Positions 1 through 61,883 of a stretch of 64,000 bases of DNA are shown piece by piece (the stretch's first letter is position 1; every line of letters starts with the position of its first letter). The notes under the pieces were generated by a model. That model did not search any database and was not told the DNA's origin. It worked only from the letters and a program-made list of their open reading frames with translations. The DNA lies in contig SNVD02013763.1 in assembly GCA_013180625.2 (NCBI GenBank), positions 21,017 to 85,016 of the forward strand, in the 5' to 3' direction. Source of the stretch: Boswellia sacra (Eukaryota; Streptophyta; Magnoliopsida; Sapindales; Burseraceae). The position numbers and the translations under genes were made by a program.

Positions 1-130
1 GAAGCAGTGATGTAAGAATACCCAACTCATATGCCCACATCTGTCATGAGTAAGATAGAATAAAAAATAATCAATACGAAGGAAACACAAATGTGTAAAA
101 GAGGAGAAGTTACCTTAATCAATGGAGTAA
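1..130 (-). pseudogene. PMD gene of Tat-like element, C-terminal-side fragment, left of CACTA insertion
   Basis: This flank aligns with the uninterrupted PMD copy near 33110-33235: both contain a CCCACATCT run followed by a similar AT-rich stretch and a CCTTAA segment. It is the far side of the PMD gene whose other part lies at 12478-13344, separated by the CACTA element. The 3 bases before the element (TAA) probably represent a mutated copy of the CAA target site found on the right side. No intact reading frame remains in this short piece. Confidence 0.6.
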
Positions 131-141
131 CACTACAAGAA
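131..141 (+). repeat. CACTA 5' terminal inverted repeat
   Basis: CACTACAAGAA matches the reverse complement of 12467-12477. After these bases the two ends differ, but both continue into an ATATTTG-type subterminal motif. Confidence 0.85.
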
Positions 142-480
142 TTTTTCATATATTTGTCACTTTGTATTTTTTTTGATTTGGCGGTTTTTTAAAAAAGTGA
201 GAAATATAATATTACTATAAAGTCAAACCCACATTTTGTTCATACTTGTCACTCATTGTTTTGACTATATTATATATTTCTCACAATTTTAGATAGTGCC
301 AAGTATGTAGACAAGCATGTACAGTAACAAAACTTTTTGTCTTGCTCCGTATTATAAAGTATTTGAAAATTTATAGAATGTATGGATTCTTATGTAATTT
401 GCAGGGACAATTTTGATAAGTCTTAATAGATAGGGATTTTCTTGAAATTTAATAAACTATATAAAGAAAGAAATGATTTC
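142..480. repeat. CACTA 5' subterminal region
   Basis: AT-rich sequence with scattered ATATTTGTCAC, TTTGGCGG, TACTTGTCAC and GCCAAGTATG motifs. These are diverged versions of the subterminal repeats at the 3' end. In CACTA elements such motifs bind the transposase. No gene is seen here. Confidence 0.55.
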
Positions 481-1324
481 TATTAACCCTAATTCCTAAT
501 AGTTTCACTTGGGTCATCCTCTCTGCTTTCAGTTTGGTCTTCATCATCTTCTTCTTCTCTGAATTCGTGTTTTTTTGCCTTCAAATTCTCAAGTTCTCAA
601 GTTGAAAACGATCCAATAGAAAAAGCTGTGAAATACGGCATATCCTAGAGAACCTGGGAAAATTTTCAAGGAAAAAAATGCTTTCTGCAAGGGAGAGCAG
701 GTGGAGATAGAATTACTGAAGATACACCTCAACATGAATCTCACCTCAACATGGATCTCTTCTGGGGAATGTTGCAGAGCGTGAACCTGTATATCTCAAG
801 CTGGATGGCCATGTTCGAAGACTTTCCTCCGAGCGTGAACCTGTATATCTCAGTCATTCAGAAGTTTCTGGGTCTTCCTCAGTGTGGAAATGGGTATCAA
901 ATTAGTGTTATTTCTTTGTCCATATTAATACCGTATTTTAATCTTTTCACGGTTCTATTTTGCTAAATCAGTGAGAGAAACATCACAGATTCATTTTACA
1001 AGGCTTTTGTTTGCTTAATTTTATGTCTGATTGCTTGGGTTATTATGGAATAAGCCCTCTGTAAATTAATGTTGCAGCCATAATACTTATGATTGTGTTC
1101 AGAAGCTTAGGGCTTTTCACACTATCAAATTTGGTTTAATTCAAGCTTAAGTTCCTTCTCCGTAAGAATATCACGCTAAGTTTTGTTTTACTAAGAAATT
1201 GGTGGAAAATGGCGGATGGTTCTGGGCTTGCTTTGCTTTCAATTAAACTATCATCCATATTTCTTGGTCTTGTCTATTTTCAATTTCTATAATATTTGAA
1301 GTTAGATAGATATCTTCTTTTTAG
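481..1324 (+). other. Leader-like and intron-like captured sequence, donor unknown
   Basis: A CT-rich, 5'UTR-like stretch (about 510-600) is followed by short exon-like sequence. The 22-base segment starting GAGCGTGAACCTGTATATCT occurs at 778 and again at 832, giving a reading frame with repeated SEREPVYL or AEREPVYL. From about 960 to 1320 it looks like intron. I do not recognise the protein. Position and orientation suggest the first exon or exons of a captured gene, possibly the same donor as the coiled-coil fragment that follows. Confidence 0.3.
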
Positions 1325-1731
1325 GATGCATATGTAGAACTGATGTTTGAGGATTTTGCGTTGTGGGTAAAAGAATTGGAAGTAGAACTTGAAACCACAA
1401 GGGATAATTGCAAAGATAACATGCAGCAAGCAGTTTCAAATGAAAAAGAGAGATTTACATAAATGCAGTGGGATGTGGAGGAACTTCGGAAGCAATGCTT
1501 TGAGATAGAAATGAAATTGAAGCATGAACAAGTTTGTTTTCAAATGTAAATATATTTTATACTGAAACACTAGTATCAGTTATTTATAAGCTTTATTAAA
1601 ATGATGTCCCGCACATGTTCCAGGCTGAAAGGGCTCGTCTTGAGTCATCAAAAACATCAACCATTCAGGAGAATGAAATGTTACTGCGTCAGTTGGATGC
1701 TACTAGGGAACAACTTGAGAACTTGCATATA
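1325..1731 (+). pseudogene. Captured coiled-coil fragment, resembling PX-domain EREX/EREL proteins
   Basis: Two exon-like blocks (about 1325-1535 and 1624-1728) are separated by an intron with a CAG acceptor at 1621-1623. The first reads DAYVELM near its start and includes NEKERFT, a stop codon, then MQWDVEELRKQC. The stop is TAA where CAA (Gln) would fit. The second reads AERARLESSKTS and then QENEMLLRQLDATREQLENL. Both are Glu/Lys-rich heptad-type coiled coils. The pattern resembles the C-terminal half of plant PX-domain endosomal Rab effectors (EREX/EREL), but no PX domain is present and a kinesin-type coiled coil is an alternative. It is a non-functional fragment. Confidence 0.45.
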
Positions 1732-1811
1732 AGTTTTTTGGCCTTCAAATTCTGTCATTTCGAGTATGAGAAAAGTTTTCATCGGTTAATATTATTAGTT
1801 CAAGTCCTACT

Positions 1812-2400
1812 TCAGTTTTGGGTTCTAGTATCGGATCTCCAAACAAAAGTGTTGTGATGGAGTCTAATGGGAATTTGGGTCCTAAGATCGTGACTGGTCC
1901 TGCTGGTTATGTTCTTGAAGATGTTCCTCATTTGACTGATTATATTCTCGATATTCCTGTAAGCTTTTTATTTCTCTTCACCTATGTGCGTGTGTGTGTT
2001 CTTTTTTTTTTATTAATAAATTTACTAACTCTTAAGTTTAGTTTCTTATTGAAAATGGTAGAAAAATAGAAAGTGGGAACATTTTCTGATTACTTTTTTA
2101 TCCTTCTCATTTTTCGATTTCAAGCAACAGACGTTGACGATCGCTTTTGCATGATCAATATATTTGAAGATATTTTTTGATCTAATAAAGTTACTGCTTT
2201 TAAAGTTTGTGGTTAAAACATTACCCTTTTTTTAAATCCCAAATTGTATCTGCTTGTTTCCCTTGAAGTTGAGATGTAGACTAATTTGTCAGCTTTGTTG
2301 ATTTTTTTTTTTGGGCTGATTTTTGTTTACTGTTTTGTTGTTTGGTTCTATAATATAATTATTTTTATTGTTGATTTGACAGACATATTCCAACCCACCG
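1812..2400 (+). pseudogene. PFK: Captured 5' end of plant ATP-dependent 6-phosphofructokinase
   Basis: The frame from the ATG at 1818 reads on to [20 protein letters not shown], the N-terminal signature of plant cytosolic ATP-PFKs. It stops at a canonical donor (CCT|GTAAG) after 1958. After a roughly 420-bp intron, an acceptor at 2381-2382 leads into TYSNPP, matching the next exon start (TYPNPLQ in the family). The PFK sequence then ends within about 20 bases and unrelated DNA follows. In the cell PFK phosphorylates fructose 6-phosphate. Only the first exon and the edge of the second are here, with no catalytic domain. The retained intron shows capture from genomic DNA rather than from a transcript. 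Confidence 0.82.
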
Positions 2401-2539
2401 CAAGTTTATTTCCAATCTGTGGTTCTTTGCCTGATCATGCTTGAAGCTTGTCAAGGATAAGCTAACAAGCTCCTGAAATAGACCAAAAGCAAAATCAGAA
2501 CAAGAGAAGAGAACAAACTTTTAGTTTTTCCTTCTGTAG

Positions 2540-3330
2540 GTACGCAAGTTTAGCAAACATTGTAGGAGTTGTGACAAATGTGTTGATGGTTTTGATCATC
2601 ATTGTCAGGTGAGTTTTAAATGTTTATTCTTGTTAGTCACTGGTTTGGTGTAGTCTCAACTCCTCCTGGTATTGGCTATATGGGAAATGATGTGGAAGTG
2701 ACTATATAGCTTAGGAATTGCAATCAGTGTGCCACAATTGAGCGTGCAGCCTTAGTTGGTTCATTAATATGTGATCTCAACACACTGTTGTGCTACATGT
2801 CCTGTCATGCAGGCTCAAAAAATTAAGTTATTTACAGCTGTTGTTTCTTTTAACTTATTTTTCCTTATTATTGGGTATGATATAAGATACCTGCATTTAT
2901 GTTGCAGTGGCTGAATAATTGTGTGGGAAGAAAAAACTATATCACCTTTGTGTGCCTTATGGCTGCAAGTCTGCTATGGGTAAGTTTTAGAGCATATGTT
3001 TTCTAACTTTCTTATTCTGTTTGGATTAAGCAACGTTTTGCTCAATTCATAATCCTTTAGTCCATACAAGTATCAATTTGATTGACCTGTGCATGTATAT
3101 CAGCTTGTTGTTGAATTTGGAGTTGGTGTTGCTGTCCTTGTCTGATGCTTTGTTGATAAGAAAGGCATAGAAAATCATATAACTGAGAGGCTCGGAGTTG
3201 GATTCTCTCTTCCTCCCTTTGCTCTCTTCCTCCCTTTGCTACTGTGGTGGTAGGAAGAGATTGTTCCTGAGCTGTTCTCACTAATATGTTTGAGCTATAA
3301 TATTGGAGAGAGTAAGCCCAAGATGACAAG
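2540..3330 (+). pseudogene. PAT: Captured fragment of a DHHC protein S-acyltransferase
   Basis: Three exons are kept in order. 2540-2608 reads [14 protein letters not shown] and then GFDHHCQ; 2908-2979 reads [15 protein letters not shown] and on to MAASLLW; 3104-3256 reads LVVEFGVGVAVLV and then [17 protein letters not shown]. Splice junctions are canonical (CAG|GTGAG, GCAG|TGG, TGG|GTAAG). This is the cysteine-rich DHHC core plus the following membrane segment of a plant palmitoyltransferase, which transfers palmitate to protein cysteines at endomembranes. The catalytic Asp-His-His-Cys (2594-2605) is intact, but a TGA replaces an Arg codon before CFVDKKG, and an 18-base stretch (CTCTTCCTCCCTTTG type, about 3207-3245) is duplicated. 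N- and C-terminal regions are missing. Confidence 0.85.
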
Positions 3331-3420
3331 AATTGGATAAAGTTTGTATTTTTAAGATTATTTTATTTTATTTTATTTTTTATGATTGAAATTATATCAA
3401 TGTCTTCATGATATTTGTAG

Positions 3421-3536
3421 CGGGCGAGCAACCAGCTTCTGTTGCCCCGAATCAAGCAAATGGAACTATAGGCTGGGAATTGGCACTCGTTACCACTCCC
3501 AGTTCAAATGAGAAAGTAGCTGCTGCAAGCAAATTG
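3421..3536 (+). pseudogene. Captured exon of an ANTH-domain clathrin assembly protein
   Basis: A single exon flanked by TTTGTAG and GTAATG reads AGEQPASVAPNQAN and then GWELALVTTPSSNEKVAAASKL. The GWELALVT..S..N..A..KL pattern is characteristic of the C-terminal, clathrin- and AP2-binding tail of plant AP180/CALM-type adaptors. Only about 38 residues are present and the membrane-binding ANTH domain is absent. Confidence 0.7.
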
Positions 3537-3737
3537 GTAATGCTGATTCTTTGATTTACCCATAGATTGTTCTTTGGTTTTTGTTTCCCGTTTAAATGTT
3601 AACAGGCCCAAAACCTTCTTCGACCCTTCATCTTGTTTTAATCTTGCCTTTAGCCTTTTCGTAAAATAATTTTGATAAAACTCTACCAAATCTTAATAGT
3701 TTTGAATTTGTTATGACATGGTTTTGCTTCAAAATAG

Positions 3738-5085
3738 GGGCATGAAAATGAAAGAGAGAAACTTATTATGGAGCATGAAGCAATCATAAAAGAGCAGGCA
3801 TCTTTGGAGAATCAATTAGCGTCACTGAGAATGTAGATTAATGGTCTCACTTTGGAAGTAGAAGAGCAAAAGAAGAAGGTAAACATCAATACCTGAATTG
3901 TCAAGCTTTGTAGTTTAAAACTAACTGCAATAGATATTCTTGTTGTAGGTTGCTGTCACACGGAATAATCATGATCAGGCACAATTTGAGCTCAATTCAA
4001 TTCGTTTAAAGATGAAGGAATGTGATTCCCAAATTCTTAACATTGTAAAGAAGCAGCAGAAACTTCAACATAAACTCAGTGACATGAAACTTGAGAGGAA
4101 GAAGTTAGAAAATGAGGTAAATTTGCTTATTATCTTATACACATTTCTACTATAGAACCAGTTGTTATTATACCTTTTTCATCAACATTTATATACCCTA
4201 AATTAAGGTCATGGTACTATAGTTTTCTATGACCTTAGTGGTGATTGCTTTTGCCTTTGTCTTTTTATTTTCCTCATGAAGCCTGGAGAAAAGGGTCAAC
4301 AAGAAGGTTATGGCAATGTTTGAGAAAGCAGAAGATGAGTACAATGATTTGATTTCCAAGAAAAACATTATTGAGGTTTGTATACACTATCTTGTGAACA
4401 TTGCTCTACCTTCTCCTTGCAAATGCTAATTTTACCTTTGTCTAGAATGACAAGTCTAAAATCAAGAAGGTGATTGAAGAACTTGATGAGACGAAGAAGG
4501 AAACACTAAAAGTCACTTGGGTCAAAGATAACAAGTAAGATTGTTTGTGCCACCTATCTCCTTCCTATTTGGTATTTTTTTTTTTGATCATTCATAGTAT
4601 CCATTTTTCTAATGGTTCTTGATTTGACAGAGGTCAATTCCATTTAATAACATTCTTAATCTTCACTTTCTTGAGGGACTTTGGATCCATCTTTTCTACC
4701 CTATTACCCAGTACGATGGCAAAGCTAGAACCTCTTGAAGGTTGCAGCTTCCTAGACGGCCTAGAAGTTCGTGTTGCCTTTGGCAGTGTTTGGAAACAGT
4801 TCTTGTCAGAACTGATTGGAGGTCAAAGATCTCTTCTGGCACTTTCTTTGATCTTGGCATTGCTTCTCCTCAAGCCAGCTCCTCTTTATATACCGGATGA
4901 GGTGCTATTAACTTTCATTTGCTCTCTTGTTTTTCACACCCATACATTTTGAGTAACAAGTTATGGGATGGATCTGGGAGTTATGACTCTTAAGTTGGTT
5001 GACAGGTTGATGCAGCTCTCGATTTGAACCACACTCAAAACATAGGAAGGATGGTCAAGTCTCACTTTCCACATTACAATTCTCT
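3738..5085 (+). pseudogene. SMC2: Captured 3' half of condensin subunit SMC2
   Basis: Six exon-like blocks with plausible splice sites lie at 3738-3878, 3949-4116, 4281-4375, 4446-4535, about 4672-4901 and 5006-5085. They encode distal coiled coil (KLQHKLSDMKLERKKLENE), then LEKRVNKKVMAMFEKAEDEY, then the ABC ATPase head ([51 protein letters not shown]). SMC2 pairs with SMC4 in condensin, which compacts mitotic chromosomes. Defects: TAG after LASLRM; the ABC signature reads LIGGQ instead of LSGGQ; Walker B reads LYIPDE instead of LYILDE. The N-terminal Walker A half, hinge and C-terminal end are missing. It cannot make a working ATPase. Confidence 0.88.
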
Positions 5086-5598
5086 TTTTGGTTTATTATA
5101 AGATTTTAGTAGGGTTTCTTTTCATTCTCTTTTTTATTTTAATTTTTAGTCTCTCTTTATGTAATTAAGGAAAGGTAGATTTAGTTAAAAAGTCACAATA
5201 TTGAATCAAATAAAACTTTTAGGCCACTGGAATAAGAGTAACCTTTAGATATTGATGTTAAAAAGTTACAATATTGATGTCTATTGTTCACCTAAACATC
5301 CTCATTTTTAAGCGCATATTGATGTTCACCATATTGATGTTCTCGGTTTCCTTCCTCCACACCAGCCTCTCTCAACCTCGCCAGCTCCTCTCTCGCCCCA
5401 AGACTCCTCTAAATGACACCGTCTTCCTCAACCCCCTCCTCTCCGATTTTGATGACTTTGTTTCCTCCAACAACAATGAAACGAGGCTGGAAGAGGCCTC
5501 AAGAGAACCTAGTAATGGAACATGTGGTTCTTTTGATAACATACTATGTGATCTCTGCTTTTATGTTTAAATACTGATTGAAACACTCTGCATGTTAG
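5086..5598 (+). other. Junction region with an unidentified exon-like stretch
   Basis: From 5086 to about 5270 is AT-rich with no gene. From 5274 to 5567 one frame stays open (98 codons), with a Pro/Ser/Asn-rich centre (SQPRQLLSRPKTPLND, then DFDDFVSSNNNETRLEE) and GC content above the surroundings. That suggests real captured coding sequence, from a donor I cannot recognise. The frame ends just before the HUB2-like exon. Confidence 0.35.
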
Positions 5599-7617
5599 GA
5601 AGGAAAGAAATTATTTCAGAATTTAAAGCCTTGGTTTCCTCATGTCCTGAGGAAATGAGTTCTATGCAAAGTCAATTAAGTAAGTACAAAGAGACTGCTC
5701 TTGATATTCACTCTGTATGGGCAGATATGCAGTCTCTTTCTAATGTTCTTAATCAGAAGGTGGGTGAAATTAAATATGTTGTCTTTCCTTACTACATATT
5801 CTTGGATTTAGTTGGACTTAAAGCTTCATTTATTTATTTTAACAGGCAAAAGAGTGTGAAACTTTATATGCAAGATCAGCTGACGAAGTTGCTGAGATAC
5901 ATAAGTTGCAAGCTATGGTATAGAATTTTTTTTATTTGATTATATTCAAGACAAATATATTTGAAACATAATTGTAGTGATCTGTTAAATACGTTGTTAA
6001 GAATCTTATAGCTAGTGGCTAACATTTTCCTGCTGTTTATAATATTTTTGATCTGAGCAACTTTCTTAAATGTACCTTTTTCAATGTATGTACCCTTCTG
6101 TTCTAGCTATGATATCTGCCTTCTTAGTGAAGTGACTGTTATTGTAGAAATAACTGATGGAATTTAAAAAAAAAATAGAGGAAGTAATTTTAGGTTGAAT
6201 GAACAGTGTAAAAGTTACGTAATGTAAAATGAAAGGGAAGGGGAAATATGACCATCAAATGCTTTAAAGACAATATTTCTGTTGATAGAGTTATGAGATG
6301 GGGGCAGATAGTAAGAAGAAGTGAAAATTGAATTATGACTGTCATTCAATGTTAGATTAGCTTGTGTGCATAGGTAGAGTCTTTCTGTACTTGACCAACC
6401 TTGGGCTTAGGTTCAAATCATTATTATTCTTGCACTGTTTAATTGTTTCTGGAATTAAGGAAATTGTTGGCATTGTGCTATTACACAATCTCATATTGTT
6501 AGTTTTCATTAAATGAAAAAAAGTATAGTATGTTGAAGGCATACAACTAAGGCATAATGCTTAATTAATTATTTATTTATTTTAAAACTATACCTTCCAT
6601 TCTCTCTTTCTAATGTGGAAAGAAAAATTTCAATAACGCAGTCATGAGTAAATGTTTTAAATGAGATTTATTCAGGTTTGACTTTTTAAGTGGAAATTTT
6701 CATGGAATTGACTAAGAGAGTAAGGAGATCAAGCAATCTAGTGCTTCAGTTTGTGTGAACCAATTTATCCTTGATGTCACATAAAAAAAGCTATGTTTTT
6801 GGACTCAAATGTTTCGTTTATGGAAAATCTGTGGTGACTTTATTTATCTCAAGGGTGGTCTTATATCCTTTCCAGTGACTTTTCTTTCCCGATCTTGGGC
6901 CTCTAAAGCACTGTATGTGAGATAGTTATACCATCAAAAAATATATAAGGAAAAATTTGTGAAGGATGGTTTCACACATGCTAAGAATGTGAGAGAGCAG
7001 AGTTTAGCAACTGCTGGCAAAATTTGTGGTGGTTATGATCTGTTCAAGGAGTTGAATCCTGGAGATGTGGATGCCTGGCTCATCGTCGATATTTTGTGTC
7101 TAGATCATATGCATGGGTTAGCTTATTTATTGTTATTCGTTGAGTAATAATATAGCAGTTAATTTTATTTTAATATGTTTTCCAAAAGTTTCTTTCCTCT
7201 CTTTTTTCATTTTGCTATTAATAACTCTCTAGCTTGTGTTATCTTTCCACTTAAAGGTGGAGTCTCTCATAGTGAATTTGATCTTGGATTGCATAACCAA
7301 AACATGGAATTTTGTTCCCTCAAACCAACTTTTAGGATCCAAAATCATTGTCCCATTTTTCTGAACCATTTTTAAGGATTTAAATAGTACTATTAAAATT
7401 TTTACTAAGGATCAGCATATCATTTCATTAATAGTTTAAATATCTTTTTTTTATTTTTTCCCTAATAATGGTCCAGATAACTTGTGACTGATTCCTCTTT
7501 AGTCCTTGCTTTTATCTATCTACATTATTCTTTGGCGCAGGTTCAAGATTTAACAAGTAGTAATTTGGAGTTGAAGTTGATTTTGGATATGTACAGACGT
7601 GAATCCACAGATTCGAG
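5599..7617 (+). pseudogene. HUB2: Captured fragment of a HUB2/BRE1-like E3 ubiquitin ligase
   Basis: Three exons are bounded by AG..GT splice sites: 5599-5759 (RKEIISEFKALVSS, then EEMSSMQSQLSKYKE), 5846-5917 (AKECETLYARSADEVAEIHK) and 7541-7617 (VQDLTSSNLELKLILDMYRR). Sequence and order match the central coiled coil of plant BRE1-like 2, which with HUB1 monoubiquitinates histone H2B in the nucleus. The RING finger is not included. The intron between exons two and three is about 1.6 kb and holds an additional exon-like reading frame (6959-7120) of other origin. The exons themselves show no stop, so this is one of the better preserved captures. Confidence 0.82.
6940..7147 (+). other. Unidentified exon-like frame inside the HUB2-like intron
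   Basis: An open frame reads KDGFTHAKNVREQSLATAGK and then CGGYDLFKELNPGDVDAWL, with protein-like composition and codon use. It is on the same strand as the flanking HUB2 exons but is not part of that protein as I know it. It could be a piece of another captured gene inserted into the intron. I do not recognise the family. Confidence 0.4.
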
Positions 7618-8055
7618 GTTAGAGAACCTACATCAAAAAGCTTTTTCCTTTTAGCTATGATGAAATATATACATTTTCAAATTTGGTAGATCGTATTTTC
7701 TTGAGTCTTTCTTTTGTTACATATTTGGTTTGTTCTATGCTGGAAGTTAAATTTGAATCCAGTTGCACAAAGAACATTTTGTTTTCTTTATATATAGTAT
7801 ATTATTATTATTATTATTTTAAATTCTTTTACCCATTTGCTATTGATTCTGGCCTGGATTTTTTTCTTATTGGGATATGGCACTGGATCCTGCATTTATT
7901 ACTCTAGTGTTTTTGCCAATTCAACTAGCTTTATTGTTTTGAGTGTCAGAGGATTTAGGAGCTACAGATGTTTGTTGTGCATCTCCAAATGAAATTTGAT
8001 TTCATTTTTCAACTATAGTCTCTGCTCATATAAAGAGATCCATCTTGTGTTGCAG
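7618..8055. other. AT-rich intron-like stretch, no gene seen
   Basis: T-rich sequence with a short TTA repeat at about 7801-7818. It looks like intron DNA between the HUB2-like and DPH6-like fragments. The exact capture junction is not visible. Confidence 0.4.
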
Positions 8056-8343
8056 GTAGCATCCATGGGGTTGGACCCTGGAAAACATTTGGGCAAAGAA
8101 ATAGCATTCTTGGAGTCCTATTTGCACAAGCTGAAAGAGTATGAAAAAAATTTCTCTTTTGTTCCTTTTTGTTATTTCTATTTTTATTTTTATTTTTTTT
8201 TGCCGTGTAGTTTTACATATTCCAAGCATAACTGTAATCTTATTCTGTTTATTTAATCATGACTTTACAGGGTGTATGGGATAAATGTCTGTGGTGACAG
8301 AGGGGAATATGAAACATTGACACTTGATTACCCACTCTTTCTT
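8056..8343 (+). pseudogene. DPH6: Captured exons of diphthine-ammonia ligase (DPH6/ATPBD4)
   Basis: Two exons are present. 8056-8140 reads VASMGLDPGKHLGKEIAFLE and then SYLHKLKE; 8271-8343 reads VYGINVCGDRGEYETLTLDY. The acceptor TTGCAG, the acceptor TTTACAG and the donor CTT|GTAAG are intact; the donor after the first exon appears lost (AAAGAG|TATG). The GINVCG.(G)GEYET motif is characteristic of the Diphthami_syn_2 ATP-binding domain, which completes diphthamide on elongation factor 2 in the cytosol. Here one Gly of the GEGGEYE-type motif is Arg. Only about 55 residues are present. Confidence 0.82.
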
Positions 8344-10776
8344 GTAAGTTCCTCCTGTGACCCCTTTACAAATAAATTAATTTTTTTAATTATTCTTCAC
8401 CATCAATTTCTTCTTTATTATTTGATTTTCTTATGAAAAAACCATGGGGTTGGTGATAAGGTGGGGGTTTTTTTTGCCGTGTAGTTTTATATAGGGTGTT
8501 AATGCTAGCAGCTTGGTTTGTGCCACCCCAACAGTCTGGCTGCAGCAGACTGGAAAGGAATGTATCTTTGCCTCTATCAATATAGAAGCCTTACCTTAAT
8601 CCTTCTTATTCCTGTTTCCTCCATTATTAATAGAGAGCAAGGTCTTACAGTAGTAAAATAACAAATTATTGAAAATGTTAGTTTCTTATTTACTTTGGTG
8701 ATTTTTATATCTTCTGTGTTTAACTTCTTTTTCAAACATTTATCTTCTTGTTAGCTTAGCCTTTGTTTATTACCCTTCAATTACGGCCCTCAAATTATTG
8801 CATTTTGCTGCTTAAATCTGAATTCTTTGCAATTATTCTTTAAGTCATGCAACATGACTAAAAATCTATTTAATTTTTTTGATGAAATGGTCTTACTTTG
8901 ATCTTATTTTGCATATATTATCTTGAATTAGTAGATGTTGCTAGATGTGAAGTATGGAAAATGAAGAGAAAGGAAAATATTTTAAAATTATCATTAGCAT
9001 CTTTAAAAAATTAAAGAGAAAACTGTAAAGTGGAGAAGGGAAAAGATAGTGTAGCCATTGGAGGACTGATAAATGTTAAATTTAAAGAAAGATTCTCAAA
9101 CAATGAAATACCTGTAGATATGATAGAAGCCATAAGTTAGGAAGGAAACGTGTGTGGTAAGAATGTTGAAAGTATACATTTGTAATGTCTCTAATGTGTC
9201 TATGATCTCTTCAATTTTTACCTTATTCCCTGTGCATGTATATTGGCATACTCACACACTGTCTTACCCCTTAACTTTCAATTATTATAGATAATAATAC
9301 AAGTTCAAGCTTCAAGCCATCTCCCAAATGCCAACTTTTGACATTTCTTTTATGGATTCTTGCTGAATTCTTCTTTTTACCATCAATCATTTTCAGTTTT
9401 TTCTGATGAATACATCTCTATTTTCTGAATTTAATTATGGTCTTGCATCTTTCAAGCATCACTAAAGATATTAAAAGTTGAGGATAAATTATTCAAAGGA
9501 TGGGGTGGTGAGAATGCATATCATGTCAGCGGGTTCCGCTACTTACTCGTGGATGGTGATAGAAATATATCCAAGGCTTCTCCATCGGGAAAGGTAACTA
9601 CCCTCACCAAAGTGAAGTGCACTACTGCAATTTTTCCTTCTACAAATAGTTTTCAGGCTTATCGTATAAGATTTTATCCATGCCATGTCCTCTAGCTGGA
9701 TGAATAACAACATTTTCGAGCAACTTCAAATTTAAATTCTTTTGAATCATTATTTGGTTTGACATGAATTTAATCTCATGTACTGTGTTGGTACTTGTTC
9801 GTTTGAATTTGCTTTGTTGTGTTGTACTCGTTTGACAATGAAGCAAGTACATCAAATTTTAGTAAAAGATTTTGAAGAACAACTTCAGTAATGAACTTTA
9901 AATAACAAACTATAGATGTTTTGTCTGTAACTAATATTTTTGGTGCAATATAGTTAATAAGAATATTTGGTTCTTTTAGATTACTAGTATGCATATCCTC
10001 ATATATTTCTTAGCCTAGATTTCAATTATTATGGAGTTCATGTGATTTTGAAGGTGGATCAGTTGATGTTAAAATCTTAAATGTGGTAGACTATGCATTT
10101 TATAGTTTGATTTCTGATCAAGTGCATGCTGCCATGTTACTCAACACATGTCTCACTTGCTCTTTGGCTACAATACTTCATACTTCTCTCGATGAACTGT
10201 CTGCCCGATTCTGTGTTGCCTCAGTTGTTGCTGCTTCAGAAGATCTGCACTAGATCTAATGTCTAGAATTAGTTTTCCAATCTTCCCCGTCCTGCATTCT
10301 CTGATTATGTTATGCAGCTCTATTATAGTTGTTAGACTTCTTTCTAAAATTCTTGTTATGTTCTGATTTCAGAAAGGTGCTCTCTTCAGAAGTGTATCCC
10401 CTGATGTCTTAATGATGGATCAAAAAGGATATTGAAAGGTCGATAATGCATAATACCTGTGCTGCCTTATATAAAATTGAATTCGTTAACTTGTCACTGG
10501 TTTATGCTTATAGATAAGTTTTTTAGCAAATTTTGTTTTGTTACTGTAGTTAGTAAACTTCAGATTTGGGAAAGACTTAACTGGCGACAGCTCATTTCAC
10601 TGTTTGTGGAATGACGAACTATTTAGCCCCAAAGATAGTGCAGGGAAAGGGCTTAATACATGTTTTGTGCATGTTGTAGATTCTGATTTTTCTTTTTATG
10701 GGTGATGAGGGTTGATTTCTGCTACCCTATGATATTGGAAGTTGTAAATTTTATCTCATGATATGATTATTCACAG
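8344..10776. other. Long captured non-coding stretch with one unidentified exon-like block
   Basis: Mostly intron-like AT-rich DNA. At about 9466-9593 a frame reads ILKVEDKLFKGWGGENAYHV and then SGFRYLLVDGDRNISKASPSG, ending exactly at a strong donor (AAG|GTAAC). It looks like a true exon of an unknown donor gene. Around 10375-10435 there is a further short exon-like segment (KGALFRSVSPDVLMMDQKGY) that I cannot assign. I see nothing else in this stretch. Confidence 0.4.
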
Positions 10777-11734
10777 ATTGTTCTCATGTGGGACAAATAA
10801 AGAAGGAGAGTCATACTTAGTGGAATGGAATGAAAGTGAGGAGCAGTCAAGCGCACATATGTTGGTCTTGGGAAGCTATCTGTAGGGGTCATGCAATTTG
10901 ATACAACGAAAAATAGGTTTTTAGCTACTGGTGATGAGTTCACCATCAAATTTTGGGACATGGACAATGTTAATATGTTGACAAGTATAGAGGCAGATGG
11001 TGGATTACCGATAATTATTTAATACAGACAAACCTTAGTTGTTTTAGTTTGATGCAATTGAGTCTGCCAGCTAACTATCTTGGTCTTGTAAATGTGCAGG
11101 ATTCACCTTGCATTTAACAAAGAAGGAATTCTATTAGCTGTCTCAACTAGCAACAATGGTGTTAAAATTCTAGCAAATACTAATGGAATCAGGCTGCTAC
11201 GCACAGTGGAGAATCGTGGATTTGGTACTTCTAGAGTTGCTGCTGCAGCTGTTCTTAAGGTAAAGGTAAAGTTTTTATGTTGACCTGCTTGTTGATAAAT
11301 GTTTTCCTAAATGCATAATGTCTATACAGGCTCCTGCAATATTTGGTTCAGTAAATATAGGTGTTGCAACAAGCATTGCAGATCGAGTTACTCTAGTAGC
11401 TGCAGCAGCAATTGTTGGAATGGTGAGTGTTGACGTCTTTGCCATGGATAATTCTGATTTTGAGTGTAGCTTAGACTTACTGTCATAGCAATGCAAATTT
11501 TTTATTGAATACAGATGGGGATACACTTGACATGAAAAAGGAATTTTGTGTAAAATGATCTAATTTTTTTCCCTTTGGCTTCTGCAGAACAATGATACTA
11601 GAAGTTTGGCTGATGTGAAACCCAAAATCACTGATGAGTCTGTGGAAAAGTCAAGGATCTGGAAACTGACAGAAATCAATGAAACATCACAGTGCCGATC
11701 TCTTAGGCTTCTGGATAATTTACAACCAATGAGG
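10777..11734 (+). pseudogene. TPL: Captured C-terminal WD40 part of a TOPLESS-type corepressor
   Basis: Four exons in native order: 10777-11009 (LFSCGTNKEGESYLVEWNES; later FTIKFWDMDN), 11100-11259 (RIHLAFNKEGILLAVSTSNN, KILANTNGIRLLRT), 11330-11422 (APAIFGSVNIGVATSIADRV) and 11588-11734 (KSRIWKLTEINETSQCRSLR). Splice sites AAG|GTAAAG, ACAG|GCT, ATG|GTGAG, GCAG|AAC and AGG|GTATG are kept. These match the second WD40 region of TOPLESS/TPR corepressors, which bind EAR-motif repressors and histone deacetylases in the nucleus. One base is missing in the first exon after WNES (about 10840), shifting the frame, and the donor after exon one is not clear. The N-terminal TPD (LisH/CTLH) and most WD40 repeats are absent. 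Confidence 0.88.
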
Positions 11735-12062
11735 GTATGGTACTTGCTTTGGAGTGCTCACTGGAAAATACAATAAGAGAATTATACCACCTGACAATCG
11801 ATTTGCATTGAAAAATTACAAAGTAATTAGATGGATTTGATACACTTAAGTTGTTATAATCCATTGTTATTCTTTGCTCTTATTGGTGCAAATTACCGAC
11901 TACATGAATTACAAAGTTGCTAATTAATTGGTATTGTGTAGTATACTTGTTTGTTATATGGATTCTTGATATATGATAAAGTGTGATTGATTCGATGATT
12001 GATGCTTGTTTTTTGAGAATTTTGTTTAATGTGACAAATGATACAGATTATGAATTTCTGAA
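11735..12062. other. Spacer between TOPLESS fragment and CACTA end repeats
   Basis: AT-rich sequence, probably intron of the TOPLESS donor grading into transposon sequence. No coding or RNA feature is seen. Confidence 0.4.
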
Positions 12063-12068
12063 ATTTTT

Positions 12069-12113
<45 letters not shown>

Positions 12114-12466
12114 CTTGGCTGATTACTAACTGCCAAGTATATATATTTTTTTATTTTTAAAACTATTTATACTTGGCGGTCAAAAACCGTCAAGTATAGT
12201 TAAGTGCATATTTGGCGGTTAAAAACTGTCAAGTATATATTTTTTTAATTTTTTAAAACTATTTATACTTGGCGGTCAAGGTGCATATTTGACGGTTAAA
12301 AACTGTCAAATATATATTTTTTTAATTTTTTAAAACTATTTATACTTGGCGGTCTTTGACCGCCAAGTATAGTAAGATGTATATTTGGCGGTGCCATTAG
12401 TGGCGCTTTCAAGACTGCCAAATATATACATAGTTGACGGTTTTTGACCGCCAAATATGGTCATTT
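12063..12466. repeat. CACTA 3' subterminal palindromic repeats, with a (TA)n run
   Basis: A (TA)n microsatellite at 12073-12110 is followed by at least six inverted pairs of TACTTGGCGGTC or ATATTTGGCGGT with their complements (for example near 12171-12200, 12211-12240, 12345-12372 and 12436-12458). The pairs could fold as hairpins. Arrays of 10-20 bp subterminal motifs are typical CACTA transposase-binding regions. Confidence 0.8.
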
Positions 12467-12477
12467 TTCTTGTAGTG
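12467..12477 (-). repeat. CACTA 3' terminal inverted repeat
   Basis: TTCTTGTAGTG is the exact reverse complement of 131-141. The following bases CAA form the right copy of the presumed 3-bp target duplication. Confidence 0.85.
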
Positions 12478-13344
12478 CAAAACTAGTAATTGTGGTGATT
12501 CCTCAATATGTGCAGTCTAAACCAAATAACAACTAGCTAAGAATAGCACAGCTGCAGTCAAATGTCCTTACTCGATCAATATCTTAGAGGCTAGGAAGCA
12601 GAGTCAAGAAGGTGGTGTCTGACGTATTGATGAAGAGCGTCGAACCAACTAGATACATGATGAAGCTTTGTGCATATTGATCTACCTCGACCGGAGTCAG
12701 ATTCAATCTTCTCTTTCAATACATGAATAAAGAATTGTACAGAATTGCAACATTGTTGATCTTCACATCATAACCAAGGAGTTGATGGACCAACTTTCGT
12801 TGATCTCTCAACTTTTTGATACAAGAATCAATGGGCAAAACCCTCCCACTGCATGGAAGGCCAATCAATGTAGCAACATCAAATGGTGTAATAGTCATCT
12901 TGCTAATCGAAAGATTAAAAGTGAGTCGTGTCCATCCACCTTTTACATAGAGTGGCTAGTGCTCAACAATCGGTGTGTCAAGAGACACGTGAAAAAGAAG
13001 TGATGAACTTTTAGAAGCTGGTAGTAGTAATCCTATTCCTAAGAACCTTATTTCCTATCTCTAAGAACCAGCTGTTGGCTCTAGAAAATGACCGGCACAT
13101 TTTGTTCTCATAGAAGTCCTCAAATGAGAAATTGAAAGTCTTTACATAAATACATGCCTAGAAAATTCCAAGAAAATGAAAAAACAAAAAATGAAGAAGA
13201 ATACATACCTAGTTGATCATGTGGGATGTGGGAATCCATGTCATAGATAACGGGCACCTCTTGGTCTTTTGGAAGACCTCTCAATATTGATCTCCAGATC
13301 GGATAGGTCTCATTCAAGTGAAGATGGACCAGATGACCAGCCAT
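12478..13344 (-). pseudogene. PMD (plant mobile domain) gene, N-terminal half, antisense inside a Tat-like element
   Basis: Read on the minus strand, the likely start is at 13344: MAGHLVHLHLNETYPIWRSI, then an intron-like gap, then a segment with MTITPFDVATLIGLPCSGRV and PIDSC (12898 leftward), then LTPVEVDQYAQSFIMYLVGS and TLFINTSDT. The pattern T..DV..L.GLP..G, then an AR(S/A)FI.YL.G.TLF core, is that of PF10536 (plant mobile domain), found in MAIN/MAIL1 and in many transposons. Stops are present in the distal part, and the gene is cut at 12477 by the CACTA element; its continuation is 1-130. It lies between pol and the GA tract of the retroelement, opposite in orientation to the LTRs. Confidence 0.72.
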
Positions 13345-31934: not shown

Positions 31935-33992
31935 AGCATTATCAATGTTAAAAGAGAAAGCAGCGACCTGGGCCTGGAGACGCTCAACCTCACGTTGCAA
32001 ATGAGTAACTTCTTTGTTACCCGTCTAACCAAGCAAAAGAATCATATGGTTAGAAAAAGTGTTAAGATAGAATCATGCACACATGAAATATAGAAGGGTA
32101 CTTTACTTGATACTAATGAGACATCTACAAAACATATCTGTGGGAAGTGCCCTGTATATGAAAAACCCGTTCCATGGAAGATTGTGGCACCTACATCACA
32201 TTGTATTCTTATTAATGATAAATGACAGGAAATTTGAGAAACGAACAGTCAAAAGACTTACCAAAATAGTGTCTTATGGCACCAAAGGAACGGGCATTTC
32301 GGATCCTCGGTGATCATGTGGCTATGGATCGACCCATTATCATCCCATGTGTAGACAACGTTACTGGGGTAAGCTTGGGAGGTCACCAATCACATAACTA
32401 GTCAGAACAGTCAAGACATCTAAAGGAGCTAGAGGAGGAGGTGGTTGTTAAGCCACTATAAAAAAAGAATCTAACATGCGCTAGTGCCTAAAGAGGAGGC
32501 TCTCAATCTCTTCCCATGATAAGCAGAAGAACTACCAAAGTGTCTAGAGGATGAGGAATGTCATCAATAGATCGGTCGTGCCTAGTGTACAATGGAGTGG
32601 CTTGAATCCAGTTGATGTAGGAAGTCATCATCAATGGGAATTTGATCCTATTCAAGTGAATCCCAATCATGTAGTCTGACACCTTTGGCTCCACATCCAA
32701 ATCAACTGAATTTGTCATCAGAACTGATTGCGAAGGAGGAATTATATGGCATGTTAGGCCGTTGTACTAATCCTACATGGGATCACCTAAATACCACATC
32801 ATGCTGGTAAGAGGATGCGATATAAGTTAAAAAGGAAAGCAACCCTTATAGCTGCGAACCAGTTCTCCTCAGGACCCCACAATTAAGAGTGAATCTGTGA
32901 AAGAGTAGAGAAGCATGGTAAGATTCTGATATAAATAAAAATATTGACTGTAATCTCTTTTTACCTTATCCTAAGTCATCATATAAATGTAATCATGAAA
33001 GAAGTCTAGCTCATGAGACCTCATAAACTTTGCACGATGTGCAACCCACCTCTTCATCTGAGGAAAGGAAGAATCATCATAAGTAGGAAGAGGAGATGGT
33101 AGAACTCCTAACTCGTATGCCCACATCTATCATGGATAGTACAAAATCAGAAATGGAAGCTATACAGACAAATTATTGAAAGTGTAGAGAAGAAAGAAAT
33201 TTCCTTAAGAAGTAGAGCAAATCCAGAGATCCTAGCAATACTTAGACAGGCTCGATCCAAACCAAAATATAGCTGGCCAAGAGTAGTACAACCCCAGTCG
33301 AAATCCCTCACTCAATCAAGATCTTGTAGGGTAGGAAGTAAAGTCAAAGTAGTGGTGTTTAATGCATTGGCAAAGAGCGTCATACCATGTAAATAGACAA
33401 TGAAGCTGCAAGCATACTAGTCCACCTCGACTGGAGACAAGTTAGACCTTCGTCTCCAATATTCGTACAAAGGAGTGTACCAAATGGCCATGTTGCTCTT
33501 GACCTTCACCTCACACCCTAAAAGTTGTTGAATCAAATTCTATTGATCTCTTGAGTCTGCAATACATATGTCAATGGGAATGGCCTCCCCACCACATGCA
33601 AGGCTGGTCAAGGTAGCAATGTCTAAAGGCATAATAGTCATCTCACCGATGAGAAGATGGAAAGTGTGGGTCGTGTCCATCCACCTCTCGCACAAAGCGA
33701 CTGATACTTGATGATCAGTGTACGGAGGGGTATGCAAAAGACAATTGATGAATTTGCAGAAACTGGTATCAACAATCCTACTCTTAATAGCCTAATTCTC
33801 TATCTCTAGAAACCAACTGTGGGCTCCAAAAAATGACCCACACATCTTTTTCTTTTGGTATTCCTAAAGCAAGAAATTAAAGTCTCTACATGAATACATG
33901 CCTAGAAAATTTGAAGAAAATGGAAAACTGAGGGATGAAGAAGAGTACATAACAAACTAATCGTGTGGGCAGCCACGTTGTAGATAGTCGAC
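31935..33992 (-). pseudogene. PMD gene of the C-E unit, most complete copy
   Basis: On the minus strand: LCERWMDTTHTFHLLIGEMT and then IMPLDIATLTSLACGGEAIP (33690-33560), FIVYLHGMTLFANALNT (about 33400), LLPTLQDLD, then AYELGVLPSPLPTYDDSSFP and QMKRWVAHRAKFMRSHELDF (33125-33000), LDVEPKVSDYMIGIHLNRIK (32700-32640), and a coiled-coil C-terminus EVTHLQREVERLQAQVAAF ending at the stop near 31935. ALxERWxxxTHTFHL..GEMTIT..D...L.GL is the hallmark of PF10536. The copia element 33998-40398 separates this from its first exon at 40404-40481. Stops and frameshifts are present. Confidence 0.78.
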
Positions 33993-36239: not shown

Positions 36240-36840
36240 GCAAAATCTATCTTGACTAAGGGGTTTATTTGTTGAAAAAAAAATTTTTGTTTAAAAAAGT
36301 TCTCACTTGTTTTTCAAATTGACAAGCATCACAAATCTTGTTATTTTCAAATTTTATTTTTGTAAGACCATCAACAAATCATTTTTAGAAATTTTTGAAA
36401 TTGTGTCCATGCTAGCATGACCTAACCTTCTATGCCATAACCAAGTATCATGATTAACAATGAAACAATTTTCTACATGATCATTAACATCAATATCAAT
36501 TGTATAAATATTACCACATCTATTACCAACAAATAATGTCTTATTGTTACTAACATCCTTAATCACACATCTATTAGGCTCAAAAGTAATAAAATATCCC
36601 TTATCACACAATTGACTAATACTAATCAAATCATGTTTTAAACCATGAACAAGCAAAACATCTTTAATAATAGGTGAAGAAGGGTTACCAATATCACCAT
36701 GTCCGATTACCCTTCCTTTGGCATTATCACCGAAGGTCACATATCCTCCTTTCTTCATGATTAATCTTGAGAACTTGGAGGCATCTCCGGTCATATGCCT
36801 TGAGCATCCACTATCTAAGTACCACTTGTGTTTGCCATTT
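36240..36840 (-). pseudogene. pol: Copia copy 1 protease/GAG-pre-integrase, truncated in integrase
   Basis: The minus strand has the protease motif WYLDSGCSRHMTGD near 36820-36790, then an open frame (36794-36354) reading KFSRLIMKKGGYVTFGDN to WLWHRRLGHASMDTI. The GAG-pre-integrase domain and the first His pair of the HHCC zinc finger are intact; the Cys pair follows near 36330 (ICDACQ). Homology to copy 2 stops near 36250, after which A/T-rich non-coding DNA leads to the PPT. The integrase core, RT and RNase H are missing. Confidence 0.85.
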
Positions 36841-38551
36841 TGTCTCTACAATCAACATTCAAGGAGTAACTTTTTGGTACCCAAAAGTTCTTGGGTCCTT
36901 GGGGGTTAGTTTTGGTACTTTTTGGAACCCATATTTGTTTCAAATTAGGATTTCTCTTAATATAGCAAGAATGCACTTTGTGTCCTTTTCTTCCACAATA
37001 AGTACATGAATGATTAGGATTATTCCTAGAAGATGCATGGCAAAATAATTTTTAAAATACTTTTGATTTTTATGAGTTTTATAACCTAAACCTCTTTTAT
37101 CAAAAACACACCTTTGGTTTTGTAACATAGAATTCAAATTTTTTGTGCTTTTTGTAAAACTATCAACAATATTTCTTAAGTCATTATTTTCCTTTTTCAA
37201 AATAGCATTTTGTTTCTCCAATTTATCAAAATCCTTTTGTTTTAAAATGTCATTTTCAGTTTTTAATAAATGTATTTGACTTTCCAAACTTTCAAAATCT
37301 TTTTGCTTTAAAATTTCATTTTCATTTTCTAAAGCTTCATTTATTTCTACCAACTCTTCTAATTGAGATAACATGATTTTTGACTTCTTTTTGAAAGCAT
37401 TAATTTTTGAATTTTCTTATCAACTTGCACATGTAAATTTTGGAATGCTTCAAGTAATTCATCATATGAAAGTTTAGGATCATAGTTTAGAATACTTACC
37501 TCATCTTCACTTAAAGCCATGAAGAACATGTTTGCCACTTCGCAATCTCTTCTTCGGTGGAGCTTAGCTTCACTAGCATCCCAATTGTGGCTTTCATGAC
37601 TTTGGATTTCTTGTTTTGACTCTTGAAGTAAGGGACAATCCATCTTTACATGTCCCGGGTTTCTGCCACTCATAGACACAAATGACTTGATCATTTTTCT
37701 TATCTGCTTTGAGCTTTTGCCTTTGTACTCCAACTTCTAGAATTCTTCTTGAATCCTTGGTTTCTTATAATCAACGTTTTAGATTTCTTGTGGATGAATG
37801 CAAGATCTTCATCATTTCCTTCATTGTCAGAATCATCATCTTCTTTGTTGAAGATTTGAAAGCGATATTTTTCTTTTTCTTGAAATCTTCTTCATTCTCT
37901 TTCAAGGTGATTTCATGAGTCATGAGAGAATCCATAAGTTTTTCTAATGGTAGTTTGGTGAGGTCTTTTGCTTCTTGAATTGCCGTCACCTTTGGCTCCC
38001 AAGATTTTGGTAGACACCTAAGAATCTTTCTCACTATTTCAACATTAGAATAAGATTTACCAAGAGATTTCAAACTATTAATAATAATCCGTAAATCTAG
38101 TAAACATTTCAGAAATTGATTCATCCGATTTCATTTTAAAAAGCTCATAACTATGAACTAGCATACTAATTTGGATTCTTTAACTTGACTAGTTCCTTCA
38201 TGAGTTACTTCAAGTGTGTGCCATATTTCTTGTGCCGTAGAACAAGTAGATATTCTATAAACTCATTTCTATCTAGAGCACAATATAACACATTCATAGC
38301 TTTAGCATTCAAACTCAATTTCTTTTTGTCATCTTCACTAAACTCTTTAGGTTCTTTAAGCATGCATTCCCCATTTTCAATTTGGTAGGAACAAAAGGTC
38401 CTTCCAAAACAATAGACCACAAATCATAATCAAAAGATTTCAAGAAAATACTCATTCTAGTTTTCCAATAAGAGTAATCACTTCCATTAAAAAATGGAGG
38501 TCTAGAGATAGAAAATCCCTCAACATATGAAGTTGAATTAAAAGTTGCCAT
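36841..38551 (-). pseudogene. gag: Copia copy 1 gag
   Basis: It starts with an intact ATG at 38551 (MATFNSTSYVEGFSISRPPF), then WKTRMSIFLKSFDYDLWSIV, a UBN2/Retrotran_gag_2 region (SLKSLGKSYSNVEIVRKILR, PKSWEPKVTAIQEAKDLTKL), a degenerate zinc knuckle near 37660 (MSGRNPGHVKMDC, first two Cys lost) and a coiled coil (LSQLEELVEINEALENENEI) at 37374-37140. Several frameshifts split the frame. Gag would form the capsid of the intracellular particle. Confidence 0.85.
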
Positions 38552-59737: not shown

Positions 59738-61067
59738 TTGGCAGCTTTTAATTCAACTTCATATATTGAGGGACTTTCTATTTCTAGATCTCCATTGTTT
59801 AATGGAAATGATTACTCTTATTGGAAAACTAGAATGAGTATTTTTTTGAAATCTTTTGATTATGATTTTTGGTCTATTGTTTTGGAAGGACCTTTTGTTC
59901 CTACCAAAATTGAAAATGGGGAATGCATGCTTAAAGAACCTAAAGAGTTTAGTGAAGATGAGAAAAAGAAATTGAGTTTGAATGCTAAAGCTATGAATAT
60001 GTTATATTGTGCTCTAGATAGAAATGAGTTTAATAGAATATCTACTTGTTCTATGGCACAAGTAATATGGCACACACTTGAAGTAACTCATGAAGGAACT
60101 AGTCAAGTTAAAGAATCCAAAATTAGTATACTGGTTCATAGTTATGAGCTTTTAAGATGAAATCGGATGAATCAATTTCTGAAATGTTTACTAGATTTAC
60201 GGATATTATTAATAGTTTGAAATCTCTTGGTAAATCTTATTCTAATGTTGAAATGGTGAGAAAGATTCTTAGGTGTCTACCAAAATCTTGGGAGCCAAAG
60301 GTGACGGCTATTCAAGAAGCAAAGGACCTCACCAAACTACCAGTAGAAAAACTTATGGGTTCTCTCATGACTCATGAAATCACCTAGAAGGAGAATGAAG
60401 AAGATTTCAAGAAAAAGAAAAATATCGCTTTCAAATCTTCAACAAAAGAAGATGATGAGTTTGATGATGAAAGAGATGATGAAGATCTTACATTCATCAC
60501 AAGAAAGCTAAAAAGGATGATTAGAAGAAACCAAGGATTCAAGAAGAATTCTAGAAGGGAGTATAAAGGGCAAAGCTCAAAGCAAGATAAGAAAAATGAT
60601 CAAGTCATTTGCTATAAGTGCAAGAAACCAGGACATGTAAAGATGGATTGTCCTTACTTCAAGAGTCAAAACAAGAAATCCAAAGCAATGAAAGCAAAAA
60701 TTGGGATGATAGTGAAGCTATCTCCACCGAAGAAGAAGATTGCGAAGTGGCAAACATGTGCTTCATGGCTTTAAGTGAAGATGAGGTAAGTATTCTAAAC
60801 TATGATCCTAAACTTTCATATGATGAATTACTCGAAGCATTCCAAAATTTACATGTGCAAGTTGATAAGCAAAATTCAAAAATCAATGCTTTCAAAAAGA
60901 AGTCAAAAATCATGTTATCTCAATTAGAAGAGTTGGTAGAAATAAATGAAGCTTTAGAAAATGAAAATAAAATTTTAAAGCAAAAAGATTTTGAAAGTTT
61001 GGAAAGTCAAATACATTTATTAAACAAAAGGATTTTGATAAATTGGAGAAACAAAATGCTATTTTGA
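59738..61067 (+). pseudogene. gag: Copia copy 2 gag
   Basis: The start codon has become TTG (59738) where copy 1 has ATG. It continues AAFNSTSYIEGLSISRSPLF, WKTRMSIFLKSFDYDF, then after a frameshift near 60157 the UBN2-like part (ISEMFTRFTDIINSLKSLGK), a TAG at about 60385, a Lys/Asp-rich stretch, an intact CCHC zinc knuckle CYKCKKPGHVKMDC (60610-60651) and a second frameshift into a coiled coil (LSQLEELVEINEALENENKI, about 60913-61010). The knuckle binds the element's RNA in family members. Confidence 0.88.
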
Positions 61068-61089
61068 AAAAGGAAAATAATGACTTAAG

Positions 61090-61883
61090 AAATATTGTTG
61101 ATAGTTTTACAAAAAGCACAAAAAATTTGAATTCTATGTTACAAAACCAAGGTGTGTTTTTGATAAAAGAGGTTTAGGATATAAAACTTATAAAAATCAA
61201 AAGTATTTTAAAAATTATTTTGCTCATGCATCTTCTAGGAATAATCCTAATCATTCATGTACTTATTGTAGAAGAAAAGGACACAAAGTGCATTCTTGCT
61301 ATATTAAGAGAAATCCTAATTTGAAACAAATATGGGTTCCAAAAAGTACCATAACTAACCCCCAAGGACCCAAGAACTTTTGGGTACCAAAAAGTTACTC
61401 CTTGAATGTTGATTGTAGAGACAAAGGAGTGGCAAACACAAGTGATACTTAGATAGTGGATGCTCAAGGCATATGACCGGAGATGCCTCCAAGTTCTCAA
61501 GATTAATCATGAAGAAAGGAGGATATGTGACCTTCGGTGATAATGCCAAAGGAAGAGTAATCGGACATGGTGATATTGGTAACCCTTCTTCACCTATTAT
61601 TAAAGATGTTTTGCTTGTTCATGGTTTAAAACATGATTTGATTAGCATTAGTCAATTGTGTGATAAGGGATATTTTGTTACTTTTGAGCCTAATAGATGT
61701 GTGATTAAGGATGTTAGTAACAATAAGACATTATTTGTTGGTAATAGATGTGGTAATATTTATACAATTGATATTGATGTTAATGATCATGTAGAAAATT
61801 GTTTCATTGTTAATCATGATGCTTGGTTATGGCATAGAAGGTTAGGTCATGCTAGCATGGACACAATTTCAAAAAATTTCTAA
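61090..61883 (+). pseudogene. pol: Copia copy 2 protease and GAG-pre-integrase
   Basis: After a second CCHC-like segment (CTYCRRKGHKVHSC, about 61258-61300), the aspartic protease motif LDSGCSRHMTGD lies at 61447-61482. The open frame 61473-61883 runs from MTGDASKFSRLIMKKGGYVT to WLWHRRLGHASMDTI, the GAG-pre-integrase domain with the His pair of the integrase zinc finger. A frameshift at about 61850-61885 separates it from the next part. Confidence 0.88.

Follow-up and report, generated by a model that had tools for sequence, protein, structure and literature searches.

In Ipomoea nil, the CACTA family Tpn1 is represented, according to an excerpt of PMC5105172, by 339 identified copies with an average length of 7,081 bp, and an excerpt on the soybean CACTA element Tgm-Express1 gives five genes in 5.7 kb (PMC1947982). 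Among Pack-TYPE elements, the stepwise example in the portion of PMC8903248 compared here is a Pack-PIF cluster, in which 163 bp were followed by 58 bp; extracts of PMC13317346 and PMC8978399 also formed part of the comparison, and maize Pack-CACTA are stated in the excerpted literature, without counts, to hold the most loci per element. Whether cut-and-paste elements capture host genes via fusion of neighbours or via errors of break repair is unsettled. Here we describe a 12.3-kb element at positions 131-12477 of a 64-kb stretch of the Boswellia sacra genome (contig SNVD02013763.1, positions 21,017-85,016; hereafter the window, meaning the whole 64,000-nucleotide stretch), in which fragments of nine host genes lie between one pair of CACTA ends. 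The results support stepwise growth of this non-autonomous Pack-CACTA, probably by double-strand-break repair with copied filler.

A single insertion with CACTA ends

The element is bounded by an 11-mer, CACTACAAGAA, which has two exact matches in the window, one on the plus strand at 131 and one on the minus strand at 12477, facing inward, with approximately 0.045 exact matches expected from base composition. A scan for subterminal repeats of the TTGGCGGT(N5)ACCG type, allowing up to 2 mismatches, placed 10 of its 11 window matches in 12173-12454, the average for the shuffled window being 0.55 matches per whole window. These repeats are both direct and inverted within the final 350 bp of the element; at the left end a single similar unit, near 177-186, was spotted by eye only.

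The element splits a single plant-mobile-domain (PMD) gene of the minus strand, to which both flanks belong. A second PMD gene copy in the window (33087-33969, minus strand) served as empty site: once one 3-bp target copy is dropped, the joined flanks align to it over 884 columns at 69% identity and run through the junction without a gap, and they align equally gap-free there to the flank of C5986, another copy of the element (donor loci and family members are referred to by C numbers). The Pfam PMD family scores the window paralog at 70.1 bits, above cut-off, and the right flank at 33.0 bits, just below the cut-off of 34.9. The target duplication of the element is imperfect, being TAA on the left and CAA on the right, and this one-base difference could be taken to mean that the ends belong to two different CACTA elements bracketing a host region by chance. 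We regard that reading as scarcely credible, given that the joined flanks match two paralogs gap-free, that both paralogs carry the right-hand CAA form and that the cargo is not a single host locus. The interval 131-12477 is one CACTA insertion, as the earlier note on this DNA had proposed on the basis of its ends and subterminal repeats. C5986 itself sits about 80 bases further along a related PMD gene, and it is possible that the two PMD-related insertions reflect a target preference.

With respect to class, the terminal inverted repeats (TIRs) open CACTA...TAGTG, the right end carries a subterminal repeat array, and 3-bp target duplications are perfect in the three relatives for which both ends and flanks were read, i.e. 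C4363 (TTT, 4,481 bp), C3912 (GTG, 5,583 bp) and C2595 (TTG, 9,634 bp). The interior gave no transposase match in a six-frame scan and consists largely of captured host gene DNA with donors elsewhere, as in Pack-CACTA. Helitrons end in 5'-TC...CTRR-3' without target duplication, and Pack-MULE have long TIRs and 9-bp duplications; both were rejected in view of the CACTA...TAGTG ends and 3-bp target duplications.

Nine donor genes

The order of the captured pieces was obtained from DNA searches of the plant's own genome with three internal tiles, together with retrieved donor loci, and is as follows.

128..130: left target-site copy TAA, one base off the right copy CAA
131..141, plus: left terminal inverted repeat CACTACAAGAA, exact match; family rows begin at 131
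131..499, plus: left terminal segment common to the family; its inner edge is the end point of 17 of 42 rows
500..589, plus: PFK 5' leader (ATP-dependent 6-phosphofructokinase 3 type); donor C2972 843-1036, with internal deletion; a 21-bp PFK sequence at the end of the leader is repeated at 1733
606..1732, plus: EREX (PX-domain protein) fragment inside PFK; donor C6432 479-2001
1733..2404, plus: PFK, second part; donor C2972 1014-1720
2408..3266, plus: DHHC palmitoyltransferase fragment (Pfam PF01529); donor C3764 726-1575
3266..3612, plus: ANTH / clathrin assembly protein (At5g35200 type) fragment; donor C6473 738-1081
3626..5316, plus: SMC2 fragment; donor C951 from 706
5317..5476: segment without assigned donor, between SMC2 and HUB1
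5477..7990, plus: HUB1 (BRE1-like 1 E3 ligase) fragment; donor C6835 1501-4035
7992..8470, plus: DPH6 (diphthine-ammonia ligase) fragment (Pfam PF01902); donor C4299 566-1040
8471..8487, plus: filler at the DPH6/CCZ1 joint (8468-8493 with its edges)
8488..10114, plus: CCZ1 (vacuolar fusion protein) fragment; donor C4870 695-2323
10115..10634: segment without assigned donor, common to C5986, C2851, C988, C4022 and C3098
10635..11745, plus: TOPLESS-RELATED 4 (TPR4) fragment; donor C5674 959-2090
11746..12477, plus: right terminal family segment with subterminal TTGGCGGT...ACCG repeats
12467..12477, minus: right terminal inverted repeat, exact inverted match
12478..12480: right target-site copy CAA

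Each of the nine donors lies on a contig of its own, and the joints are placed at near base level. Assigned donor DNA amounts to ~10.5 of the 12.3 kb (85%, taking the EREX border as 604), and identity between element and donor is 89-95.5% for pieces of more than 200 bp. The earlier note had recognized several unrelated host genes, and its PFK, DHHC, ANTH, SMC2 and DPH6 fragments all have donor loci in the plant's own genome; its tentative EREX-like piece is indeed EREX, on the evidence of a protein search and of donor C6432. Of its other assignments, "HUB2" is HUB1 and the TOPLESS piece is TPR4, and it had missed CCZ1. The names DHHC and DPH6 come from Pfam, SMC2 from solved structures, EREX and CCZ1 from protein search, and HUB1, PFK, ANTH and TPR4 from protein matches, the best matches of the cargo including proteins of Acer, Pistacia and Citrus (Sapindales).

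A relative's protein was used to test seven donor loci (the nine apart from DHHC and SMC2), and in every one of them exons of the same gene continue past the copied segment: on both sides for EREX, HUB1, ANTH and TPR4, on the right for PFK, mainly on the right for DPH6 and, in the stretch examined, on the left for CCZ1. Introns and most splice sites are retained in the element and, since all nine pieces keep introns, the captured material was genomic DNA. The EREX donor shares an in-frame stop with the captured piece, and thus may already be a pseudogene; its contig, C6432, holds at least four EREX-like copies, at 37, 66, 93 and 199 kb, with 87-94% identity to the element.

Neither the PFK nor the ANTH piece matched a Pfam family, and a PDB search with the TOPLESS piece returned general WD40 matches only. 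In a six-frame Pfam scan of the element (stops as X, E 0.01), only SMC_N and DHHC were matched, both in sense and below their cut-offs, and no transposase family appeared in any frame at that threshold. Neither 10115-10634 nor 5317-5476 obtained a protein name, the names returned by a query that included pieces of both being mostly those of clathrin-assembly and TOPLESS proteins among the 120 matches listed of 188. The stretch 5340/5345-5479, at the HUB1 border, recurs at 12 other loci (84-92%). Two candidate features within HUB1 were set aside: an internal TTGTAGTG at 5972-5979, considered as an element end, is not supported as such and lies inside HUB1 donor sequence, and 6902-7117 is not a separate gene or extra donor because it falls inside the contiguous HUB1 donor match.

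A family with constant ends and variable interiors

Searches of the B. sacra genome itself (638.6 Mb, 7431 contigs) reveal a large family, the ends of which are constant and the insides variable. With 131-1131 as left-end query, the best 40 of 1608 candidates were scored, giving 42 rows; 37 of these, the window's own among them, start exactly at base 131, whilst 17 end at ~499 (query 367-369), 13 at ~574, and the other 12 extend further. Because so many rows stop at ~499 or ~574, the first 369 bp are taken as the family terminus, with variable sequence inside it. At the right end, 28 rows of the best 40 scored (from 1526 candidates, and again including the window's own) finish exactly at 12477. 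A search for copies with the same ends, as the earlier note had proposed, thus found many, and their cargo differs. For C4363, a duplicate of its own empty site lies nearby: the flanks match 8747-9153 and 9151-9301, which overlap by the 3-bp target.

The cargo of other members includes a Glu/Leu/Phe/Val dehydrogenase piece in the tail of C2595, within the element; MCM pieces in C7289, where its left end and right-terminal repeats stand on either side (24.7 bits, against a cut-off of 24.8), and in C3734, inward of the left end (46.4 bits; left end only read); a family-20 glycosyltransferase piece behind the left end of C2452 (left end only read); and, upstream of TPR4 and the right end in C6190, of which the left end was not found, a class II aminoacyl-tRNA synthetase piece. 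C5986 and C2851 are 99% alike over 7.9 kb, and the existence of ~99% identical copies (C5986, C2851, C2595) suggests, so far as sequence likeness can date it, fairly recent movement.

Several further observations concern the family. C4711, C2452 and C5213 have the common PFK leader, break at nearly the PFK position of the EREX insertion and continue beyond it with one common other sequence; the break point is possibly a capture hotspot or a shared module. A repeat of ~1.4 kb, 94% alike, occurs at different places in the composite copies C211 and C2851. Two loci, C812:1491304-1491981 and C5921:8792-9469 (82-85%), seem to span the DPH6/filler/CCZ1 joint and are perhaps older relatives.

Stepwise assembly

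The order of assembly, which the earlier note had proposed to be stepwise, can be read in part from relatives. Left of the EREX piece the PFK donor sequence reaches ~1036, and to its right it restarts at 1014, so that ~21 bp of PFK stand on both sides; in C4363 the two flanking copies are identical to each other. Because EREX is nested in PFK between these duplicates, PFK was present before EREX. C4363, read from end to end, consists of PFK with EREX inside it, DHHC donor 726-2086 and then the right-terminal repeats, and has none of the later donors (ANTH, SMC2, HUB1, DPH6, CCZ1, TPR4); C5191 and C3809, both partly read, share with it the long DHHC piece and the right end. In the window element, by comparison, as in C5986, C2851, C2595, C211 and C988, DHHC stops at donor position 1575 and passes directly into ANTH at 738. 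As lost DNA cannot readily return in register, the C4363 type represents the earlier stage; it also retains ~427 bp of EREX absent from the window element, C5986, C2595, C211, C3912 and C2632.

C4363 likewise bears on the proposal that the pieces had been joined by some other process before CACTA ends took up the block in one step, with which the recurrence together in several copies of joints such as that of CCZ1, the unassigned segment and TPR4 would agree. C4363, with the same left end, holds PFK/EREX and a longer DHHC piece with no later donors, implying that the block was incomplete when it was enclosed; moreover, the nine donors are scattered over as many contigs as separate loci, such that the cargo is not an older scrambled host locus; the earlier note had named a scrambled locus of that kind as a finding that would refute its interpretation. 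We consider assembly in advance of enclosure highly improbable, and continue with stepwise growth inside the element.

Copies of the ANTH-bearing type differ further among themselves. Approximately 291 donor bp of SMC2 are missing at 4156 in the window element and kept in C5986, C2851 and C988, whilst C5986 and C2851 are without the window's 5988-8835 (most of HUB1, the whole of DPH6 and part of CCZ1) and stop at TPR4 donor 1147. A PFK-DHHC tree (10 rows) gives 100/100 support for six siblings. C3912 and C2632, tried as earlier stages, were rejected as truncated derivatives: they keep ~21 bp of ANTH and are nested in the ANTH-bearing clade, so they have lost ANTH. These two have a common left flank and may be one insertion seen twice.

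Mechanism of growth

The proposed sequence of events would begin with a PFK leader beside the left end (step 1), followed by entry of the EREX piece into PFK and of a DHHC piece after PFK (step 2); the distal DHHC would then have been replaced by ANTH and SMC2 (step 3), and HUB1, DPH6, CCZ1 and TPR4 added in one order or another (step 4). The likely engine would be repair of double-strand breaks inside the element, e.g. after excision, in which a broken end copies DNA of other genes, changes from one template to another and is finally closed by filler that is short or copied. Movement would occur in trans, the transposase of another CACTA element acting on the ends. The partner transposase and the route of repair are both inferred.

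Break repair with template switching is proposed because the joints are abrupt, the EREX nest is flanked by 21 bp, and the DPH6/CCZ1 joint contains ~26 bp of filler copied from DPH6. The segment 8468-8493 is a second copy (25/26) of 8194-8219; this sequence occurs in the DPH6 donor but could not be found in that of CCZ1. These scars also bear on a different route to many donors, in which two nearby related elements, once their inner ends are lost, transpose as a unit together with the intervening host DNA, repeated rounds of which would yield many donors. Such fusion, or tandem insertion, is a published model for Pack-TYPE elements, set out with examples in an excerpt of PMC8903248. It accords with the occurrence of the left cargo, on the one hand, and of TPR4 with the right-terminal module, on the other, in different sets of elements, and with the step to the ANTH-bearing type, which swaps the right part of the C4363 type as well; the 21-bp PFK overlap around EREX could conceivably stem from two element copies cut at nearly the same place. 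However, two independent cuts overlapping by 21 bp would be a coincidence, whereas such an overlap is expected from one staggered break, and the copied filler resembles a repair scar. Fusion should also leave inner termini, yet no left- or right-terminal match was seen between the donor pieces of the window element, and after DHHC there are six donors on different contigs, with four joints that are direct or at most 17 bp apart. On balance we prefer break repair, with filler copied in, to a fusion of neighbouring elements, which we judge unlikely as the source of this cargo.

Several points weigh against growth in stages by break repair. The PFK-DHHC tree does not separate the window element, C4363, C5191 and the donor, so that the precedence of the C4363 type over the ANTH-bearing type rests on structure. 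C4363 is the sole early-stage copy read whole: the C5191 stretch is without the left part, and C3809 has an insertion of ~3 kb between two adjoining parts of PFK (C3809:165529-168593). The right terminus of the window element resembles the right termini of TPR4-carrying elements (83-89%) more closely than it does the ones in C4363, C3912 and C2595, a pattern that also fits a joining of two elements. The SMC2/HUB1 and CCZ1/TPR4 joints contain DNA without assigned donor, and the repair pathway is deduced from scars alone. Finally, no autonomous partner sharing these ends came to light; one candidate, C1473, showed no left end in the 4.5 kb examined. Transposase_21 is itself well represented in the plant's own genome, with 150/150 scored matches above cut-off (the best 150 of 1265 candidates), none of which was tied to the ends of the element.

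Direction of the captured pieces

All nine donor pieces of the window element read in sense from left to right. Among other members, taken from search rankings rather than by random sampling, 11 stretches were scanned in three sense frames each (and one further frame of C5213) against Pfam at E 0.01, and 6 of the 11 gave sense-frame matches: the dehydrogenase, glycosyltransferase 20, tRNA synthetase and MCM pieces above cut-off, and WD40 in C7289 and a WAK-associated match in C3703 below it. Antisense scans of 8 of the 11 stretches, including all six with sense matches, gave 0/8 matches, and the antisense strand of the window element had no Pfam match. Overall, 13/13 pieces are in sense with MCM counted once (sign test ~0.0002), or 11/11 without the glycosyltransferase and tRNA synthetase pieces, for each of which only one end was read (sign test ~0.001).

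It is tentatively possible, and we would put it no higher, that capture in this family is intrinsically directional, with donors copied only in sense relative to the left end. Repair may copy from genes under transcription or, alternatively, only sense pieces may outlast transcription and splicing from the left end. Against directionality, the raw-frame Pfam scan recovers just 2/9 of the known window donors (SMC2, DHHC), and the antisense silence is weak evidence because the scan is insensitive; in addition, two stretches of the window element (5317-5476 and 10115-10634) are without assigned donor. Whether selection or the copying mechanism sets the direction is a question raised by the uniform sense of the nine window pieces and four further pieces in relatives; directional capture, if true, would mean that the family builds co-directional exon trains. 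In the excerpt of PMC8903248, 'same orientation' refers to neighbouring insertions, and we do not claim same-direction capture as previously unreported.

Elsewhere in the window, two retrotransposon remnants with near-identical open reading frames lie in opposite orientation (36354-38124, minus strand; 59738-63836, plus strand); we take them to be Ty1/copia-like.

Comparison with known systems

Because one genome here offers a readable series, with joints, nest, filler and an earlier-stage relative, the choice between fusion and repair can be tested on scars. Chimeric transcripts, and small RNAs directed at the donor genes, may also arise from the family.

The element is a Pack-CACTA of the Tpn1 / Tgm-Express kind, in which nine donors, a readable history and uniform direction stand out; we claim no record number of donors. 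Like Tpn1, it is a non-autonomous CACTA in which terminal regions are conserved and the insides swapped for host sequence (PMC5105172, in excerpt), and it differs in that nine donors are resolved in one element and accompanied by an earlier-stage relative. Growth of the family by internal acquisition is likewise described, in the excerpted literature, for the Pack-CACTA and Pack-TYPE elements of Arabidopsis, maize and rice. Relative to the Pack-PIF example of PMC8903248, the captured pieces here are large, at 0.3-2.5 kb, and in contrast with the fusion model set out in the same excerpt, the scars favour break repair. With Tgm-Express1 the element has in common that introns and exons of unrelated host genes stand between CACTA ends; the pieces of Tgm-Express1 are spliced into chimeric RNAs (PMC1947982, in excerpt), whereas the Boswellia element is known here from DNA, and has nine identified donors in 12.3 kb and a history that can be read from its relatives.

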